The notes under the pieces are model-generated. The model made no database searches. It had not been told where the DNA came from and saw nothing but the letters and a program-made list of their open reading frames with translations. The position numbers and the translations under genes are program-made. Below are positions 43,671 to 50,885 of a stretch of 64,000 nucleotides of DNA, piece after piece. The stretch's first letter is position 1. The number at the start of each line of letters is the position of its first letter. Source of the DNA: Lysinibacillus louembei (GTDB lineage Bacteria; Bacillota; Bacilli; Bacillales_A; Planococcaceae); the NCBI RefSeq assembly GCF_033880585.1, contig NZ_CP137624.1:496001-560000 (forward strand), in the 5' to 3' direction.

Positions 43671-44096
43671 ATGTTATTTGACAGAGTCAAAAAACTAGCA
43701 GAAGAACGTGGAGAAAATTTAAAAACAGTTGCTCAAAAACTAAGTTTTAGTGAAAATGCTTTTTATAAATGGAAAACGCAAAGTCCTAAATCTGAAACTT
43801 TAGAAAAGACAGCAGACTATTTTGATGTGAGTACCGATTATTTACTAGGTCGCACTGACCAAAAGCGCTATTACGATTTAACCGAGAAGGATGAGCAATC
43901 GATACAGGAAGAGCTCCAAAAAATGATTGAAGGATTATCTAATAGCGGACATGCTGCGTTTGATGGACGAACATTAGACGAATTAAGTGAAGAGGAATTG
44001 GAAGATCGAGAATTGTTACTATCCAGCTTAGAAAATTCTCTACGACTTGCTAAAAGAGTAGCTAAACAAAAATTTACACCTAAAAAATATAGATAG
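43671..44096 (+). CDS. XRE-family repressor (ImmR/CI-like)
   Basis: 141 residues. The N-terminal helix-turn-helix (VKKLAEERGENLKTVAQKLS, then ENAFYKWKTQ and TADYFDVSTDYLLGRTD) is typical of XRE repressors of Gram-positive mobile elements. The C-terminal half is acidic and helical. It probably binds the TATCCA sites upstream and holds the tail operon off. The gene lies 70 bases before an ImmA/IrrE-type protease, the usual partner that cuts such repressors in ICEBs1 and phi105. Confidence 0.85.
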   Translation: MLFDRVKKLAEERGENLKTVAQKLSFSENAFYKWKTQSPKSETLEKTADYFDVSTDYLLGRTDQKRYYDLTEKDEQSIQEELQKMIEGLSNSGHAAFDGRTLDELSEEELEDRELLLSSLENSLRLAKRVAKQKFTPKKYR

Positions 44097-44169
44097 TCAT
44101 GCTGTTATTTCCCTATCACTAAGAAAATTAGTTATAATATACTTAAAAGTATCGTTAAAGTAGGAAGTG

Positions 44170-44628
44170 ATGAATTTGTCACAAATTAAAAACTTAGTCA
44201 ATCAGCTAATCAAAAAGCATCGTACGCTTGATCCATTTGAACTTGCTGAGCGCATGGGAATAATCATTGTTTATGAGCCTTTAGGAAGTACTTTAGGTTA
44301 CTTTAGCAAGCAGTTTAGAGTCCCTATCATTCATATTAATCAGGATGTTAGCAAAGAAATACAAACGTTTATTTGTGCTCACGAGCTTGGCCATGCTGTC
44401 CAGCACGCCAATGTGAACACAACCTTTTTAAAAAGGCATACCCTTTTATCCACTGAAAAAATTGAAATAGAGGCGAATACGTTTGCTATTGAATTACTGT
44501 TACCAGATGAATATTTTAATGAAAAAAATAATACTAACTTTACCATCTATGAAGCAATTGAAAGTTACGGTGTTCCTACAGAGCTACTAATTTTGAAAAA
44601 CTTAGATGGTAAAAAACTTGCCCTTTAA
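44170..44628 (+). CDS. ImmA/IrrE-family metallopeptidase
   Basis: About 152 residues with the zinc motif HELGH in FICAHELGHAVQHANVNT and an EIEANTFAIELLLP segment that supplies the third ligand (Glu). ImmA proteins cleave and inactivate the neighbouring XRE repressor, for example after DNA damage. The ATG at 44170 is used with AGGAAG upstream; a GTG at 44167 is the alternative. It is co-directional with the repressor and is the last gene of the phage-like block. Confidence 0.88.
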   Translation: MNLSQIKNLVNQLIKKHRTLDPFELAERMGIIIVYEPLGSTLGYFSKQFRVPIIHINQDVSKEIQTFICAHELGHAVQHANVNTTFLKRHTLLSTEKIEIEANTFAIELLLPDEYFNEKNNTNFTIYEAIESYGVPTELLILKNLDGKKLAL

Positions 44629-44800
44629 CAGAACGTACATTCTATTGTGGAGCGGAAATTATCTTGATCAGCAAAACCTCTTCTACTCTTTATATCATCT
44701 ATTGCAAACATGATTTCTATAGAGTAGGAATAGTATGATTAAATATTTTTATTGCTCTCTAACGTTATTTTAGTTATAATTCATATTTGTGCTTATGCAC

Positions 44801-44840
44801 CGTGGTTCGTAACCATCCCACGTGAACAAAACTAGGAGGA
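44801..44840 (+). promoter_or_regulatory. PreQ1-I riboswitch of queT
   Basis: CGTGGTTCGTAACCATCCCACG forms the conserved stem-loop (CGTGG/CCACG with C-rich loop) and is followed by an A-rich tail, AACAAAACTAGGAGG, that contains the ribosome binding site. The pattern fits class I preQ1 aptamers, whose pseudoknot hides the Shine-Dalgarno sequence. Confidence 0.85.
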
Positions 44841-44847
44841 ATTGAAT

Positions 44848-45424: not shown

Positions 45425-45740
45425 TTGTTCGGGTATGGTAGCAGGTTGCGGGAGCGCGACCACCAAGAGACGAGATGAGTAGAGTTTGAGCTGAGAAAAA
45501 TTGATGACTAAGAATAGTAGCTATTGTTTTATGTGAGAGAGAGTGCATGTTGGGTGGAAATGCACCATAAACAGTAGTGAATGGGCCTTAGGAGAGCTGT
45601 CGGCTTTTTTGTCGATGGACGGATTCCCTACGTTATAAGGGCATGAGTGGAAGCAAATAGGCTTCAAGCTGAGGTGGCAACGCGGTATTTATCGTCCTCT
45701 ACAAAAGGAACAATTCCTTTTGTAGAGGACTTTTTTTATT
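45425..45740 (+). ncRNA. T-box riboswitch of the trp operon
   Basis: The conserved T-box sequence AGGTGGCAACGCGG is at 45672-45685. The leader also holds an AG-rich bulge region (GAGAGAGAGTGCATG), a CTATTGTTTTATG/CATAAACAGTAG stem and GGGCCTTAGGAG as in stem III. It ends in a 17-bp terminator (GTCCTCTACAAAAGGAA and its complement, then TTTTTTT) at 45694-45737. Uncharged tRNA should promote read-through. Tryptophan specificity is inferred from the genes below; I could not assign the specifier codon with certainty. Confidence 0.9.
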
Positions 45741-45759
45741 TTAAAAGGAGGAAAATGAA

Positions 45760-46533
45760 ATGCAAAAAACTTCACGTACGACGATTCGCAAAGTAAATGG
45801 AGATTGTTTAACGCCAATTGTACTTTTTAATAGACTGCAAGGAACGCAAAAGTTTTTATTGGAAAGCGCCACAAAGCATGAAACAACTGGGCGCTACTCC
45901 TTTATTGGAGCAAACCCACGCAAGACATATAAAGGCAAAGGAGATACGCTACAGGAAATTAGCCATGTCACATATAGCCATCATGGCGACTTAATTCAAT
46001 CGCTCAAGCAAATGATGCCACGTATTTCACAGCATACAGAATACCCTTTTATGGGTGGGGCAATCGGCTATATCCATGAAGATGAGATACTGTTTCAAGT
46101 ATATGATACGGTCATTATTTTTGATCATATAACTGACGAGCTTGCTATCGTGCATACAAATATTGAAATCGAGCAGCAAACACCTAATTTAGATGCACTA
46201 ATTGAGCAATTGATGAATGGAACTACAGCAGACGCTCAGAACAAGGCTTTTGCGGATTACCGCAAATTCCGATTAGAGCAAAGAGCTTCCTATTTATATT
46301 ATGTAGAATTTGCGAATAGCACTCTTATTGGCTCTTCAGCAAGTAGCACAATTAAGGTAAAAGATGGCGTGATTACGACAGCAATTCCAACGGTAAACGA
46401 ATGGGCACAGAATGGGCAGCTCCCCCCTTCTGCCCATTCAATCGACGCATTAGCAGAAGCAGTAAAAAGCGTGCCAGCAATGTTAGGCTATATCGGTTTT
46501 AATGGACAAATTGATTTTACGGTGGAGGGATAA
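45760..46533 (+). CDS. trpE: Shortened TrpE-like protein, catalytic core deleted
   Basis: Intact TrpE (anthranilate synthase component I) has about 460-515 residues; this frame has 257 and no internal stop. The N-terminal regulatory half is preserved: LLES (33-36) with GRYSFIGANP (44-53), the tryptophan-binding feedback motif, and FMGGAIGYIHED (97-108). Only fragments of the chorismate-binding half remain (YYVEFANSTLIGSSAS 180-195, MLGYIGFNGQIDF 241-253). The stretches expected to carry AGDIFQ, PIAGTRPRG, LVDLxRND and GxLTGAPK are missing, as is the C-terminal tail. It should not make anthranilate. GGAGG precedes the ATG and trpD starts 6 bases after the stop. Confidence 0.88.
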   Translation: MQKTSRTTIRKVNGDCLTPIVLFNRLQGTQKFLLESATKHETTGRYSFIGANPRKTYKGKGDTLQEISHVTYSHHGDLIQSLKQMMPRISQHTEYPFMGGAIGYIHEDEILFQVYDTVIIFDHITDELAIVHTNIEIEQQTPNLDALIEQLMNGTTADAQNKAFADYRKFRLEQRASYLYYVEFANSTLIGSSASSTIKVKDGVITTAIPTVNEWAQNGQLPPSAHSIDALAEAVKSVPAMLGYIGFNGQIDFTVEG

Positions 46534-46538
46534 GTCAT

Positions 46539-47567
46539 ATGTCATTACAACAATACACGGCGCAAATTAATCATCATGAAAGCTTACCACTTGAAGAAAT
46601 GAAGGCGGCAGCAGCGCTTATTTTCAATGAGACAACTCCTGCTCAAGATATCGCTGACTTTTTAATTGGCTTAAGCAAGAAAGGGGAAACGGCGGAAGAG
46701 GTAGCAGGTCTTGCAATCATTATGCGTGATAATGCACTGAAAATTGATGTACCAGAAGGAATTTATATGGATAACTGTGGTACAGGCGGTGATGGTCTAC
46801 AAAGCTTTAATATTAGCACAACGACCGCTTTTGTCCTCGCTGGTGGGGGCTTGCTTGTTGCCAAGCATGGCAATCGCAAAATATCGAGCGCTGCTGGCAG
46901 TTCTGACGTTTTAGAGGCATTGCAAATTCGTTTGCTCCCTTCTGTTGAGGAAACTTCCGAATTACTTGAGCAGCATGGCATCGCTTTTTTACATGCACCT
47001 AATATGCATCCGAAATTAAAGCGTATCAGTGAAATCCGTCGTTCTATTGGCAAACCAACGATTTTTAATTTAGTTGGGCCTTTGACGAACCCTGTCCCTT
47101 TAAAGACGCAATTTGTCGGCATTAATCGTCCGCATTTTACGACAGATTATGCACAGGTTTTGCATATGCTAGGTCGAGAGCGAGCAATTGTTGTTTCGGG
47201 CACACAGGGAATGGACGAAGCTTCACTAGAGGGAGAAAACACGCTTGCATTGCTTGACCGAGGTGATATTATCCCATTTAAATTACGCGCTGAAGATGTT
47301 GGTTTACGTACTATGCCTTTATCTGCAATTCGAGGTGGAGATGCACGGGAAAATGCAAAAATTTTGCTCGATTTATTAAATGGTCAGCAAAGTGCTTACT
47401 TAGATACTGTGTTACTTAATGCCGGCATCGGCTTCTTTGCATATGGATCCGCACTATCAATTAAAGAAGGTATTGAAATGGCTAGGGATAGCATTTTTTC
47501 AGGTCGTGCTTTAGAAAAGCTACAGGCTGTCGTTGCCTATTCACAGCACAAGGAGGGTGTCCAATGA
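46539..47567 (+). CDS. trpD: Anthranilate phosphoribosyltransferase
   Basis: Joins anthranilate to PRPP, step 2 of tryptophan synthesis. 342 residues, normal length. The PRPP and anthranilate sites are visible: DNCGTGGDGLQSFNIST, KHGNRKISSAAGSSDVLEAL (Lys-His-Gly-Asn-Arg), FLHAPNMHP and FNLVGPLTNP. The ATG at 46539 follows GTGGAGGGATAAGTCAT. It overlaps trpCF by 4 bases. It is apparently functional although the upstream TrpE is not, so it would need anthranilate from another source. Confidence 0.95.
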   Translation: MSLQQYTAQINHHESLPLEEMKAAAALIFNETTPAQDIADFLIGLSKKGETAEEVAGLAIIMRDNALKIDVPEGIYMDNCGTGGDGLQSFNISTTTAFVLAGGGLLVAKHGNRKISSAAGSSDVLEALQIRLLPSVEETSELLEQHGIAFLHAPNMHPKLKRISEIRRSIGKPTIFNLVGPLTNPVPLKTQFVGINRPHFTTDYAQVLHMLGRERAIVVSGTQGMDEASLEGENTLALLDRGDIIPFKLRAEDVGLRTMPLSAIRGGDARENAKILLDLLNGQQSAYLDTVLLNAGIGFFAYGSALSIKEGIEMARDSIFSGRALEKLQAVVAYSQHKEGVQ

Positions 47568-48940
47568 CCATTTTAACGAAAATTATTGACCATAAAAAAA
47601 CAGAATTAGATAGCTTACGTGCAACAGAGCCTAATTTTATCGCAACGGCAAAGCGCCCTTCTCTTTATGAACAGCTGCGTCAAACAACGACTGTACAGGT
47701 TATTGCTGAAATGAAACGTGCCTCCCCCTCAAAGGGCGATATTGCGACACATGTTGAGCCCGTTGAGCAAGCAAAGACTTATGCAGCTGCAGGTGCTGCT
47801 TGTATTTCTGTTTTGACAGAAAGTAAATTTTTCAAAGGCTCTTTCGCTGATTTAAATGCTGTGGCACGAGCTGTTGATATTCCTTTATTGTGCAAGGATT
47901 TTATCATTGATCCAGTGCAAATCGATTATGCAAAGGCTGCTGGGGCATCAGTTATTTTGCTTATTGTAGCGGCTTTAACGGATGAGGAGCTCGCTTCGTT
48001 ATATGCTTATGCAACGTCTTTAGGGCTTGATGTTTTAGTAGAGGTACATGATGTTGAAGAACTAGCACGCGCATTAAAAATCAACCCGAAAATTGTCGGT
48101 GTTAATAACCGCAATTTAAAAACATTTGAGGTAGACTTAGCGCAAACAGCAGAGGTAGCGCAGCATTTAACAAATAACGACATCGTCTTTATTAGTGAAA
48201 GTGGTATTTGGGGACCTGAGGATGTAGAGGTAGTAGCAAAGGCTGGTGCACGTGCTGTGCTCGTTGGCGAGTCCCTTATGCGTAGCGACGATGTAGTAGC
48301 AGATTTACAAGCATTGCAAATTCCATTAACAAAGGTCAAAGTTTGTGGCTTAAAAACATCTGAGCATGTTGAAGCAGCAGTGCAAGCAGGCGCAGATTTC
48401 ATCGGCTTTGTTTTCGCACCAAGCAAACGCCGCATTTCAGTGGAGGAGGCAATTGAACTTGCTAAATTGATCCCTGCTAACGTGAAAAAGGTTGGTGTAT
48501 TCGTTAATGAAGATGTAGAAACAATTCGTGCTATTGCTAAGACAGTTCCACTTGATTACATTCAATATCATGGCGATGAAACGAATGACTTTATTCAGCA
48601 AGTTGGCTTACCTGCATTAAAGGCATTTTCGGTACGTGATGCAGAGGATGTAAAAAAGGCAGCAGCTTTTAATGTAGATTATTACTTATTCGATGCACCA
48701 GGCACAGATTTCCGTGGTGGTAGCGGGCATACATTCGATTGGTCTTTGGTAGAGGAAGCAAATATTCCAAGCTCAAAGGTAATTGTTGCAGGTGGTTTAA
48801 CGGTAGCTAATGTTGCAGAGGCCGTTCAATTTGTTCATCCCGCAGCAGTCGATGTATCAAGCGGTGTAGAACGAGATGGTATAAAAGATTCCACATTAAT
48901 TCAAGCATTTATTCGCAATGCGAAAGGAGCTAAACAATGA
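47564..48940 (+). CDS. trpCF: Fused indole-3-glycerol phosphate synthase and phosphoribosylanthranilate isomerase
   Basis: One 458-residue protein carries two TIM barrels. Residues 1-250 are Trp[26 protein letters not shown], and [11 protein letters not shown]. Residues about 256-458 are Trp[36 protein letters not shown] and [11 protein letters not shown]. Both active sites look complete. Most Firmicutes have separate trpC and trpF genes; fusion is typical of enteric bacteria. The order is reading-frame continuous without a stop or linker. It overlaps trpD and trpB by 4 bases each. Confidence 0.95.
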
Positions 48941-50124
48941 CAACTGTAAAAGGACGTTTCGGTGAATACGGTGGACAATTTGTGCCTGAAACATTGATGA
49001 CTCCACTTTTGGAGCTGGAGCAAGCTTATGAGGAAGCAACAAATGACTCTGAATTTTCAGCGCAATTTCAATATTATTTGCAGCAATATGTAGGGCGTGA
49101 AACACCTCTTTATTTCGCAGAGCGCCTAACAGCTAAATGTGGTGGTGCAAAAATTTATTTAAAGCGTGAAGATTTAAATCATACAGGGGCACATAAAATT
49201 AATAACGCCATTGGGCAAGCATTGCTAGCAAAGCGTATGGGTAAAAAGAAAATCGTAGCTGAAACTGGGGCAGGACAGCACGGTGTCGCAACAGCGACAG
49301 CCTGCGCATTGCTCGATTTAGAATGCATTGTTTATATGGGGGCAGAGGATGTGAAGCGTCAAGCATTGAACGTCTTCCGTATGGAATTACTTGGCGCAAA
49401 AGTTATTGCAGTTGAAAAAGGCTCTGCTACATTAAAGGATGCGGTAAATGAAGCTTTACGTCATTGGGTAACACATGTGGAGGATACACATTATATTTTA
49501 GGCTCAGCGCTTGGACCACACCCCTTCCCTACCATTGTACGCGATTTCCAACGTGTCATCGGTGATGAAACACGTGCACAAATTGTGGCACAGGAAGGGC
49601 GCTTACCAGACAGCGTTATCGCTTGTATTGGTGGTGGCAGTAATGCAATCGGCATGTTTTATCCATTTATCGAGGATGAAAATGTGCAATTAATTGGGGT
49701 TGAGGCTGCTGGTGCAGGTCTTGCAACAGGCAAGCATGCGGCAGCGATTTACGGCGCACAAAAAGGCGTGCTACATGGCGCATATATGTACTTATTGCAG
49801 GATGAAAACGGCTTTGTACAGGAGGCACACTCCATTTCAGCTGGGCTTGATTATCCAGGCGTCGGACCTGAGCATTGTTATTTGAGCGATATTGGTCGCG
49901 CACTTTATGAAAGTGTAACAGATGTGGAGGCTTTAGAAGGCGTCAAGTTGCTTGCTGAAACAGAGGGCATTTTACCCGCTTTAGAAAGTGCCCATGCTAT
50001 TTACTACGCAGCACAGCTTGCGAAATCGAAGACGGCAGATGAAATCATTGTCGTTTGTTTATCAGGTCGTGGCGATAAAGATGTGCATACATTAATTGAT
50101 ACAATTGGAGGGACAGAGGCATGA
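48937..50124 (+). CDS. trpB: Tryptophan synthase beta chain
   Basis: PLP enzyme that joins indole and serine. 395 residues. The PLP Lys lies in [13 protein letters not shown], the Gly-rich phosphate loop is GGGSNAIG, and [16 protein letters not shown] opens the protein as expected. [18 protein letters not shown] supplies the catalytic Glu region. It overlaps trpCF and trpA by 4 bases each, consistent with stoichiometric synthesis of the alpha2-beta2 complex. Confidence 0.96.
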
Positions 50125-50885
50125 TTCAACAAGCGATTGAGCAAGTTTTAGCACATGGTGACCGTGCGTTCGTCCCATATATTATGGCTGGAGATGGCGG
50201 CTTAGAAGCTTTAAAAACGACCATTTTGCGCTTACAGGAAATCGGTGTAACAGCCATTGAAGTAGGCATCCCTTTTACAGACCCTGTAGCGGATGGATCG
50301 ACGATTGAGCTTGCAGGACAGCGTGCATTGCAAAATGGCACTACATTAAAATCAGTCTTAGCTACACTAGCGAGCTTTGCTGAGGAAATTACTGTGCCAC
50401 TTGTTGCGATGACCTATTTAAATCCTATTTTAGCGTACGGGGCAGCAACATTCGCTCGTGATGCAAAGCAAGCAGGTATTTATGGTGTCATTATTCCGGA
50501 TATGCCGTTGGAGGAGCGTGACATTATTTATAGTGCACTACAGCAAGAGGAAATTGCGTTAATTCAGCTCATTTCTTTAACAAGCCCTGCGGAACGTATT
50601 GAAAAATTAGCTGCGGCGAGTGAAGGCTTTATTTATGCGGTCACAGTTAACGGCATTACAGGCGCACGCAGCAATTTTGCAAATGAGCTAGAAGCCCATT
50701 TTGCTAAATTGAAAGCGGCAAGCACTATCCCTGTATTAGCCGGCTTCGGCATTTCTACACCTGAGCACGTCAAAAAATTCGCCAGCTTTAGCGATGGCGT
50801 CATTGTTGGCAGTAAGATTGTTGATGCTCTTACAAATAATGATTGGACAACAATTGAAGCGTTAGTTGAGGCTTCGAAAAAGTAA
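50121..50885 (+). CDS. trpA: Tryptophan synthase alpha chain
   Basis: Cleaves indole-3-glycerol phosphate to indole, passed to TrpB through the tunnel. 254 residues, TIM barrel. The catalytic Glu lies in [19 protein letters not shown] (with the Asp in PVADG), and the phosphate site in AGFGIS and [10 protein letters not shown]. It is the last gene of the operon and ends at a strong bidirectional terminator. Confidence 0.95.

Follow-up and report, generated by a model that had tools for sequence, protein, structure and literature searches.

A catalytically dead TrpE at the head of the trp operon of Metasolibacillus and related genera, a candidate tryptophan-binding regulator

Dead enzymes that act as regulators are already known. 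PabB of E. coli is related to TrpE and carries tryptophan in the equivalent pocket, with its fold held by the bound tryptophan. HisZ derives from histidyl-tRNA synthetase. In the short-form ATP phosphoribosyltransferase, HisZ is itself catalytically inactive and carries the pocket for histidine (PMC9734150). The prozyme of trypanosome S-adenosylmethionine decarboxylase and a dead deoxyhypusine synthase paralogue are cases of a dead paralogue beside an active one (PMC5201418 and PMC3663545). In TrpE itself, anthranilate synthase component I, the pocket and contact residues used here are those described for the M. tuberculosis enzyme (PMC6437058). In B. subtilis, trpG lies apart from the trpEDCFBA operon (PMC11255114).

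The window, a stretch of 64,000 nucleotides (NZ_CP137624.1, positions 496,001 to 560,000), contains a trp operon that starts with an unusually short trpE (Table 1). A preliminary description of the window had singled out this gene as shrunk in frame to 257 residues. The open reading frame is indeed unbroken, with LLES at residues 33-36, GRYSFIG at 44-50 and GGAIGY at 99-104 all intact, and the ribosome binding site and T-box that were noted upstream are both present. The PreQ1-like element is the upstream boundary and lies outside the trp unit; it scores just below threshold here and above threshold in three relatives, and the queT-like gene behind it is so named from a reading of its ORF. Between 37457 and 44628, the ORFs read as phage-tail-like, one of them tape-measure-like, beside helix-turn-helix and metallopeptidase-like ORF sequence (43671-44628), which suggests that a putative prophage edge flanks the trp region. 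The trpC-trpF fusion may be restricted in distribution, as the best aligned piece in most of the loci inspected from other genera was the trpC part only.

Table 1. Features of the trp region, in window coordinates
Feature	Position	Strand	Basis or remark
PreQ1 riboswitch-like element, 5' of queT-like gene	44796..44841	+	Rfam RF00522, E 4.2e-06, 38.9 bits (gathering score 39)
T-box leader, Trp specifier GAA-UGG	45495..45702	+	Rfam RF00230, 111.7 bits (gathering score 93); GAATGG at element position 84
Shine-Dalgarno AAGGAGG of short trpE	45745..45751	+	Read in sequence
Short, catalytically dead trpE, 257 aa	45760..46533	+	ORF; ATG start, no internal stop
LLES, residues 33-36, first half of Trp pocket motif	45856..45867	+	M. 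tuberculosis TrpE 53-LLES-56; kept in 56/56
R45-Y46-S47-F48	45892..45903	+	Alignment; R45, S47, F48 = M. tuberculosis TrpE R65, S67, F68
H123, His170 equivalent (subunit contact also touching pocket)	46126..46128	+	Alignment
Y178-L179, pocket Tyr284-Met285 equivalents	46291..46296	+	Alignment
GYIGFNGQIDF, residues 243-253	46486..46518	+	Alignment; Y244, D252 = pocket Tyr445, Asp453 equivalents
GGAGGG, trpD Shine-Dalgarno, within end of trpE	46524..46529	+	Read in sequence
trpD	46539..47567	+	Named by reading; yardstick for evolutionary rates
trpC-trpF, one fused frame, 458 aa	47564..48940	+	Named by reading
trpB	48937..50124	+	Named by reading
trpA	50121..50885	+	Named by reading

Compared with a full-length relative from genus g16, the short TrpE lacks four internal blocks of at least 16 residues (16, 46, 64 and 25) and the C-terminal 44 residues. 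The 16-residue loss lies in the N-terminal domain, and the other three are in the chorismate domain or at its edge. The three chorismate-domain gaps previously described are therefore there, but a fourth internal loss and the missing tail have to be added to them. The N-terminal domain is still recognised as the tryptophan feedback domain PF04715 (Anth_synt_I_N; 76.3 bits against a cut-off of 23), while the chorismate domain, at 15 bits, falls below its cut-off of 27. The whole protein scores 100.2 bits against NCBIfam TIGR00564, far from the cut-off of 517.7 for a TrpE equivalog.

The correspondence of MbtI active-site residues to TrpE motifs is one that we take from knowledge of the family rather than from a computed alignment; the pocket residues of M. 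tuberculosis TrpE were mapped onto the family by sequence alignment. (For the MbtI residues, see PMC8008425.) The same kind of TrpE occurs in 56 genomes, here called the dead group. The four metal-site glutamates are together in none of these 56 proteins, compared to 51 of 51 other TrpE rows, which are termed catalytic on their residues alone; 54 of the 56 have none of the four. Some single active-site residues survive: E257 is present in 30 of the proteins and H338 in 29. The equivalents of L53, L54, E55, S56, R65, S67, F68, H170 and D453, on the other hand, are kept in all 56, and positions 284, 285 and 445 are always Y/F, M/L and Y/F, respectively. The LLESx10S motif and its partner residues are present in the short form. 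A full pocket and dimer score is passed by all 56 dead proteins, by 17 of 21 catalytic operon relatives and by 4 of the 30 remaining TrpE, many of which fail through a Phe at position 54. The earlier statement that the catalytic core had been lost and the tryptophan site kept thus extends to the whole group. Other, residual chorismate chemistry, to which descent from a chorismate enzyme might point, is scarcely credible, as no row has a complete set of metal-site glutamates and the short forms lack most of the active-site region.

The retention of the pocket was also expressed as a statistic over sites that are at least 80% conserved among other TrpE. L54 was left out of the pocket set, as other TrpE vary there, leaving 11 sites. 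Leu at position 285 was scored as a loss of Met, and Phe at position 445 (28/28 Lysinibacillus rows) as a loss of Tyr. In the 27 shortened proteins, retention is 0.966 for the 11 pocket and dimer sites, 0.047 for 18 active-site positions and 0.421 for 126 others, and none of 20000 random site sets matched the pocket value. The 28 full-length Lysinibacillus copies fall in the same order (0.906, 0.349 and 0.595), with 84 of 20000 random sets matching. Judged by these residues, the retained set fits a protein that would bind tryptophan and dimerise, and the residues that have gone are those on which catalysis and partnership with TrpG would depend. Five residues fixed in the dead group only (R54, T56, T93, T125 and N134) were considered as signs of a gained function and discarded: they are unremarkable, because a control clade of ordinary, full-length TrpE has 13 such sites, and the catalytic operon clade has 0.

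To map the distribution of the dead group, 200 genomes of the family were surveyed, an even draw from a larger set. A dead TrpE of one lineage lies directly before trpD, with no trpG, in all 56 genomes that were sampled from six genera, given here with their probable names: Metasolibacillus (g1, which includes the genome of the window; 5 genomes, 257-272 aa), Solibacillus (g14; 16 genomes, 325-332 aa), Lysinibacillus (g15; 28 genomes, 435-457 aa), g16 (1 genome, 457 aa), Caryophanon (g17; 3 genomes, 341-379 aa) and the L. odysseyi group (g19; 3 genomes, 383-396 aa). The smallest pruned form seen is that of 257 residues. None of the matches in the 56 genomes has an internal stop, although a frameshift near an end could escape, since a script set the start codons and every row was treated as an open frame. 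The check for the short form in related genomes, proposed at the outset, found it open in all five sampled genomes of its own genus, window genome included. Relatives of the short protein include a Metasolibacillus MAG (99.6-100% identity), Metasolibacillus meyeri (86%) and Bacillus ndiopicus (81%). The dead trpE copy in genome G004 has another end than that in G001, longer by 12 codons. Among the literature matches listed, in a search that covered few subscription journals, none describes a dead TrpE from these bacteria.

The order of events can be read from a tree of 74 of the 107 TrpE rows together with PabB, in which 29 of the 56 dead-group rows were included and the midpoint root serves for drawing only. 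A branch with 100/100 support separates the dead group from all other rows. Its neighbours are the operon TrpE of g6 and g18 (98/84), followed by that of g3 (Sporosarcina) and one genome of g5. In the 21 operon proteins of these four genera, every catalytic residue scored is retained, the metal-site glutamates included. Genera g6 and g18 have a second TrpE together with their still catalytic operon TrpE, the state expected of an earlier stage, and since they hold both, the second TrpE probably predates the death of the operon copy.

Death came before shrinkage, to judge from the sequences. The 28 Lysinibacillus copies are nearly full-length, yet they have lost the metal-site glutamates and the glycines of the GAG motif; the arginine of AIRT is lost in 27 of them and the glutamine of DIFQ in all 28. 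Caryophanon pairs in the tree with full-length Lysinibacillus, and Metasolibacillus and Solibacillus pair with the full-length g16 protein. As the shortened groups have different full-length neighbours, shortening occurred at least twice, and the tree indicates a single origin of the dead group followed by at least two separate shortenings. One loss of about 46 residues is nearly identical in the two lines, 182-228 in Caryophanon and 182-227 in Metasolibacillus in the numbering of the full-length relative.

No trpG is present in the trp operon of the window, as the preliminary description had remarked. As a sign of decay, its absence was set aside, being ordinary for this operon type: it has little weight because trpG is separate in B. 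subtilis and because the operon TrpE of sister genera (g3, the g5 genome G152, g6 and g18) has no adjacent trpG either. These 21 operon TrpE proteins keep the catalytic residues scored, and their DLxRND motif is intact in 0 of 21, compared to 30 of 30 other TrpE. They are possibly ammonia-dependent or have an altered contact with the amidotransferase.

The genome, a single contig of 3.96 Mb, has another TrpE. At 3.317-3.319 Mb lies a TrpE of 451 residues (561.4 bits against the TIGR00564 cut-off of 517.7), followed by a TrpG-like amidotransferase (218.2 bits against the NCBIfam TrpG/PabA cut-off of 121.05). The two other PF00425 matches in the genome are PabB-like, beside amidotransferase-like and PabC-like genes, and MenF-like (isochorismate synthase subfamily, 355.8 bits against 224.75). 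The earlier suggestion that the strain would need anthranilate from elsewhere or be auxotrophic at that step is rejected in view of this full-length TrpE with its adjacent TrpG-like gene. A full-length TrpE match (E 1e-60 or better) is found in 55 of the 56 genomes, the exception being a 2.1 Mb assembly rated 90% complete. As far as sequence can tell, the operon "trpE" is not the working anthranilate synthase, and the full-length TrpE apparently does the chemistry. The preliminary description had named a full-length trpE and trpG elsewhere, combined with absence or frameshift of the operon copy in sister strains, as what would speak against it; the first half of this is the case, but in the five sampled genomes of the genus the operon copy is neither absent nor frameshifted.

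In other genera, a superseded operon trpE has been cleanly lost, so such an exit was available. Among 24 genomes tested with a TrpE of the second type from genera outside the dead group, 23 have trpD, and at 18 of these 23 loci no TrpE or TrpG match was found in the 1.5 kb 5' of trpD (g5, 6/7; g11, 9/9; g10, 2/2; g18, 1/2). All 18 have a T-box core motif, recognised by pattern, 98-260 nt upstream. TrpE precedes trpD in g7 (2), g9 (1) and the remaining g5 and g18 genomes.

The dead copies that were kept are under selection. Pairwise dN/dS was calculated with our own Nei-Gojobori script for pairs with dS between 0.05 and 1.5 only, which left 9 of 10 pairs in Metasolibacillus, 34 of 120 in Solibacillus and 123 of 378 in Lysinibacillus, the remainder being mostly saturated; as dS is near 1 in many pairs, the values are approximate. 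The median for the dead TrpE of Metasolibacillus is 0.094 (0.079-0.105 in nine pairs; the two sequences of the tenth are too similar for an estimate), while trpD and the full-length TrpE of the same genus have values of 0.065 and 0.067, respectively. In Solibacillus the median is 0.100 (0.051-0.227) and in Lysinibacillus 0.139 (0.100-0.475). Selection on the protein sequence, evident in all three medians, and the loss of catalytic residues within a family of active enzymes, seen by sequence homology, are the marks of a pseudoenzyme. The earlier alternative of a dead gene that kept its frame by chance is not supported, given the low dN/dS of the nine Metasolibacillus pairs and the open frame in 56 of 56 genomes.

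A related explanation is that of an ordinary duplicate caught midway in decay, in which selection on the retained parts is only apparent. The full-length TrpE-TrpG pair elsewhere is consistent with this, as are the missing segments that differ between genera and the outright loss of the gene in others. It is nevertheless very improbable given the frame open throughout, the low dN/dS in three genera and confident, compact models for two separately shortened forms.

Within the protein, selection is uneven. In Metasolibacillus, the N-terminal domain of the dead copy has a dN/dS of 0.061, compared to 0.101 in the full-length copy, and the catalytic regions run the other way (0.093-0.153 compared to 0.015-0.082). 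The N-terminal values are 0.080 and 0.115 for Solibacillus and 0.105 and 0.090 for Lysinibacillus, from different pairs, and the tighter N-domain of the dead copy is thus not general, because Lysinibacillus goes the opposite way. The dead protein evolves faster than trpD, with a dN ratio of 1.36 to 2.44; the catalytic TrpE of g3 does likewise (1.57).

These rates bear on the idea of a frame-keeping relic, an inert protein translated only for coupling to trpD or as protection against Rho, in which in-frame losses would survive and residues would drift. The arrangement of the genes is suited to it: the Shine-Dalgarno sequence of trpD lies inside the end of trpE, and trpD starts 5 nt past the stop. 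Translational coupling and Rho are subjects of B. subtilis trp operon work, according to a title cited in PMC11255114, and regions outside the pocket do evolve faster. However, drift is hard to reconcile with the low N-domain dN/dS of Metasolibacillus and with pocket residues fixed in all 56. The 18 trpE-less trpD loci of other genera, each with its T-box motif, show that trpE-trpD coupling is dispensable, which weakens the case for a frame kept only for trpD. The explanation is accordingly considered distinctly unlikely.

AlphaFold2 gave a model of the 257-residue TrpE with a mean pLDDT of 89.3 and a pTM of 0.89 (65-row alignment). Of its residues, 248 superimpose on tryptophan-bound S. marcescens TrpE (1I7S), with Z 21.6 and an rmsd of 2.7, and 254 on M. 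tuberculosis TrpE (5CWA), with Z 23.0 and an rmsd of 3.1. The Caryophanon form of 341 residues (pLDDT 89.5, 58-row alignment) matches 1I7S over 328 residues (Z 31.5, rmsd 2.6). Such confidence is partly expected, as the input alignments consist of true relatives. Foldseek gave query TM-scores of 0.58-0.75 with a large rmsd, due to the deletions in the short form, and the figures quoted are those of a second aligner. The models thus predict a compact fold matching that of tryptophan-bound TrpE.

Alternatively, the protein may be a structural partner that helps TrpD or the working TrpE to assemble, as a scaffold or subunit in which bound tryptophan would hold the fold, as in E. coli PabB, and sense nothing. 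The pocket is drawn from both lobes, pocket and dimer contact form the best-kept set, and the gene is encoded next to trpD in all 56 genomes. There is a parallel in C. trachomatis, in which TrpB needs a catalytically inactive TrpA (PMC3937554, where TrpA and TrpB are named TrpEa and TrpEb). Permanently bound and sensed tryptophan look alike in sequences such as these; a structural role is regarded as rather unlikely, if the most serious of the rivals.

The division of labour between the two TrpE proteins appears not to be strict. Full-length TrpE keeps the pocket at ten of the eleven sites in 77 of 77 rows, in genera with and without the pseudoenzyme, with L54 replaced by F in all 77. This Phe, which replaces the second leucine in LLES, occurs in five genera; among the three full-length TrpE rows of the L. 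odysseyi group, one has Leu at position 54. The substitution was rejected as the mark of a lost sensor, as it is also found in 38 of 38 rows of g5 and g11, where none of 16 trpD loci tested has the pseudoenzyme before trpD. A strict handover, with the full-length TrpE surrendering its sensing, was likewise rejected, as the pocket is kept and relaxation of the N-domain is uneven among genera: the ratio of dN between N-domain and catalytic regions is 1.89, 2.08 and 1.52 where the pseudoenzyme is present (three genera) and 1.50 and 1.65 where it is absent (two genera). Having its own pocket, apart from L54F, the full-length TrpE need not depend on the pseudoenzyme for sensing, and TrpD is therefore at least an equally good candidate partner.

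The regulation of the two loci points to a common signal. A specifier scan covered 18 loci, one of which (L123) has no T-box. All 17 T-boxes examined carry the Trp specifier GAA-UGG, 13 before an operon trpE and 4 before a separate trpEG, the latter being all four such loci scanned. With Trp T-boxes on both, the two unlinked units should respond to the same uncharged tRNA.

The reading preferred here, to which about an even chance is given, is that selection maintains a pseudoenzyme which binds tryptophan and probably regulates the pathway. What the sequences themselves show is that the active site has been lost while pocket and dimer residues have been kept, that the protein is under purifying selection, that both units have a T-box and that a full-length TrpEG is encoded elsewhere. 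Tryptophan binding, which the preliminary description had proposed and which sequence, selection and predicted structure support, would come with dimerisation and with regulatory action on a target. Against a sensor stand the pocket of the full-length TrpE, the genera that live without the pseudoenzyme and its faster evolution compared to trpD.

In the proposed mechanism, an anthranilate synthase component I would have lost catalysis in the common ancestor of several genera, probably after a complete second TrpE-TrpG pair was present, and would have been retained as a small protein folding around the old tryptophan feedback pocket, with a subunit contact coupled to the pocket. When tryptophan is short, the T-boxes should switch on the pseudoenzyme together with trpDCFBA and, separately, the working trpEG. 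As tryptophan accumulates, it would most likely be bound by the pseudoenzyme, and the signal relayed within the pathway, the most plausible recipients being TrpD, encoded on the same mRNA, and the working TrpE, with which a dimer surface may be shared. More tentatively, and with less confidence than in the regulator as such, this could be a new type of tryptophan sensor, an allosteric domain freed from its own enzyme that would join TrpD or the working TrpE in mixed assemblies and, much like HisZ in the case of histidine, determine how sensitive the pathway is to tryptophan, with at least two lineages separately pruning it towards a minimal pocket.

A graded series from catalytic to full-length dead to pruned down to the pocket, within one bacterial family, is rare. 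It lets the transition from enzyme to ligand-binding protein be followed, names the residues that would build a tryptophan site without catalysis, and predicts a small, soluble tryptophan-binding protein. Metabolic models should not read the "trpE" of the trp operons of Lysinibacillus, Solibacillus and Metasolibacillus as anthranilate synthase.

Among known proteins, the closest is TrpE itself (S. marcescens 1I7S, M. tuberculosis 5CWA), with which the short form shares ancestry, fold over 248 of its 257 residues, the LLESx10S motif, a His170-type contact and the equivalents of Tyr284/Met285, Tyr445 and Asp453, although it has no active site and is about 200 residues shorter. PabB, with its structural tryptophan, is an active enzyme, unlike the dead TrpE. 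The prozyme and the deoxyhypusine synthase paralogue are eukaryotic and belong to known active complexes, whereas the dead TrpE is known here from sequence and has more than 40% of the protein gone. HisZ acts, by analogy, at the first step of an amino-acid pathway and may offer a working model, but it belongs to another fold family, and the end-product pocket that a HisZ-like arrangement would remove from the catalytic subunit is still present, L54F aside, in the full-length TrpE.
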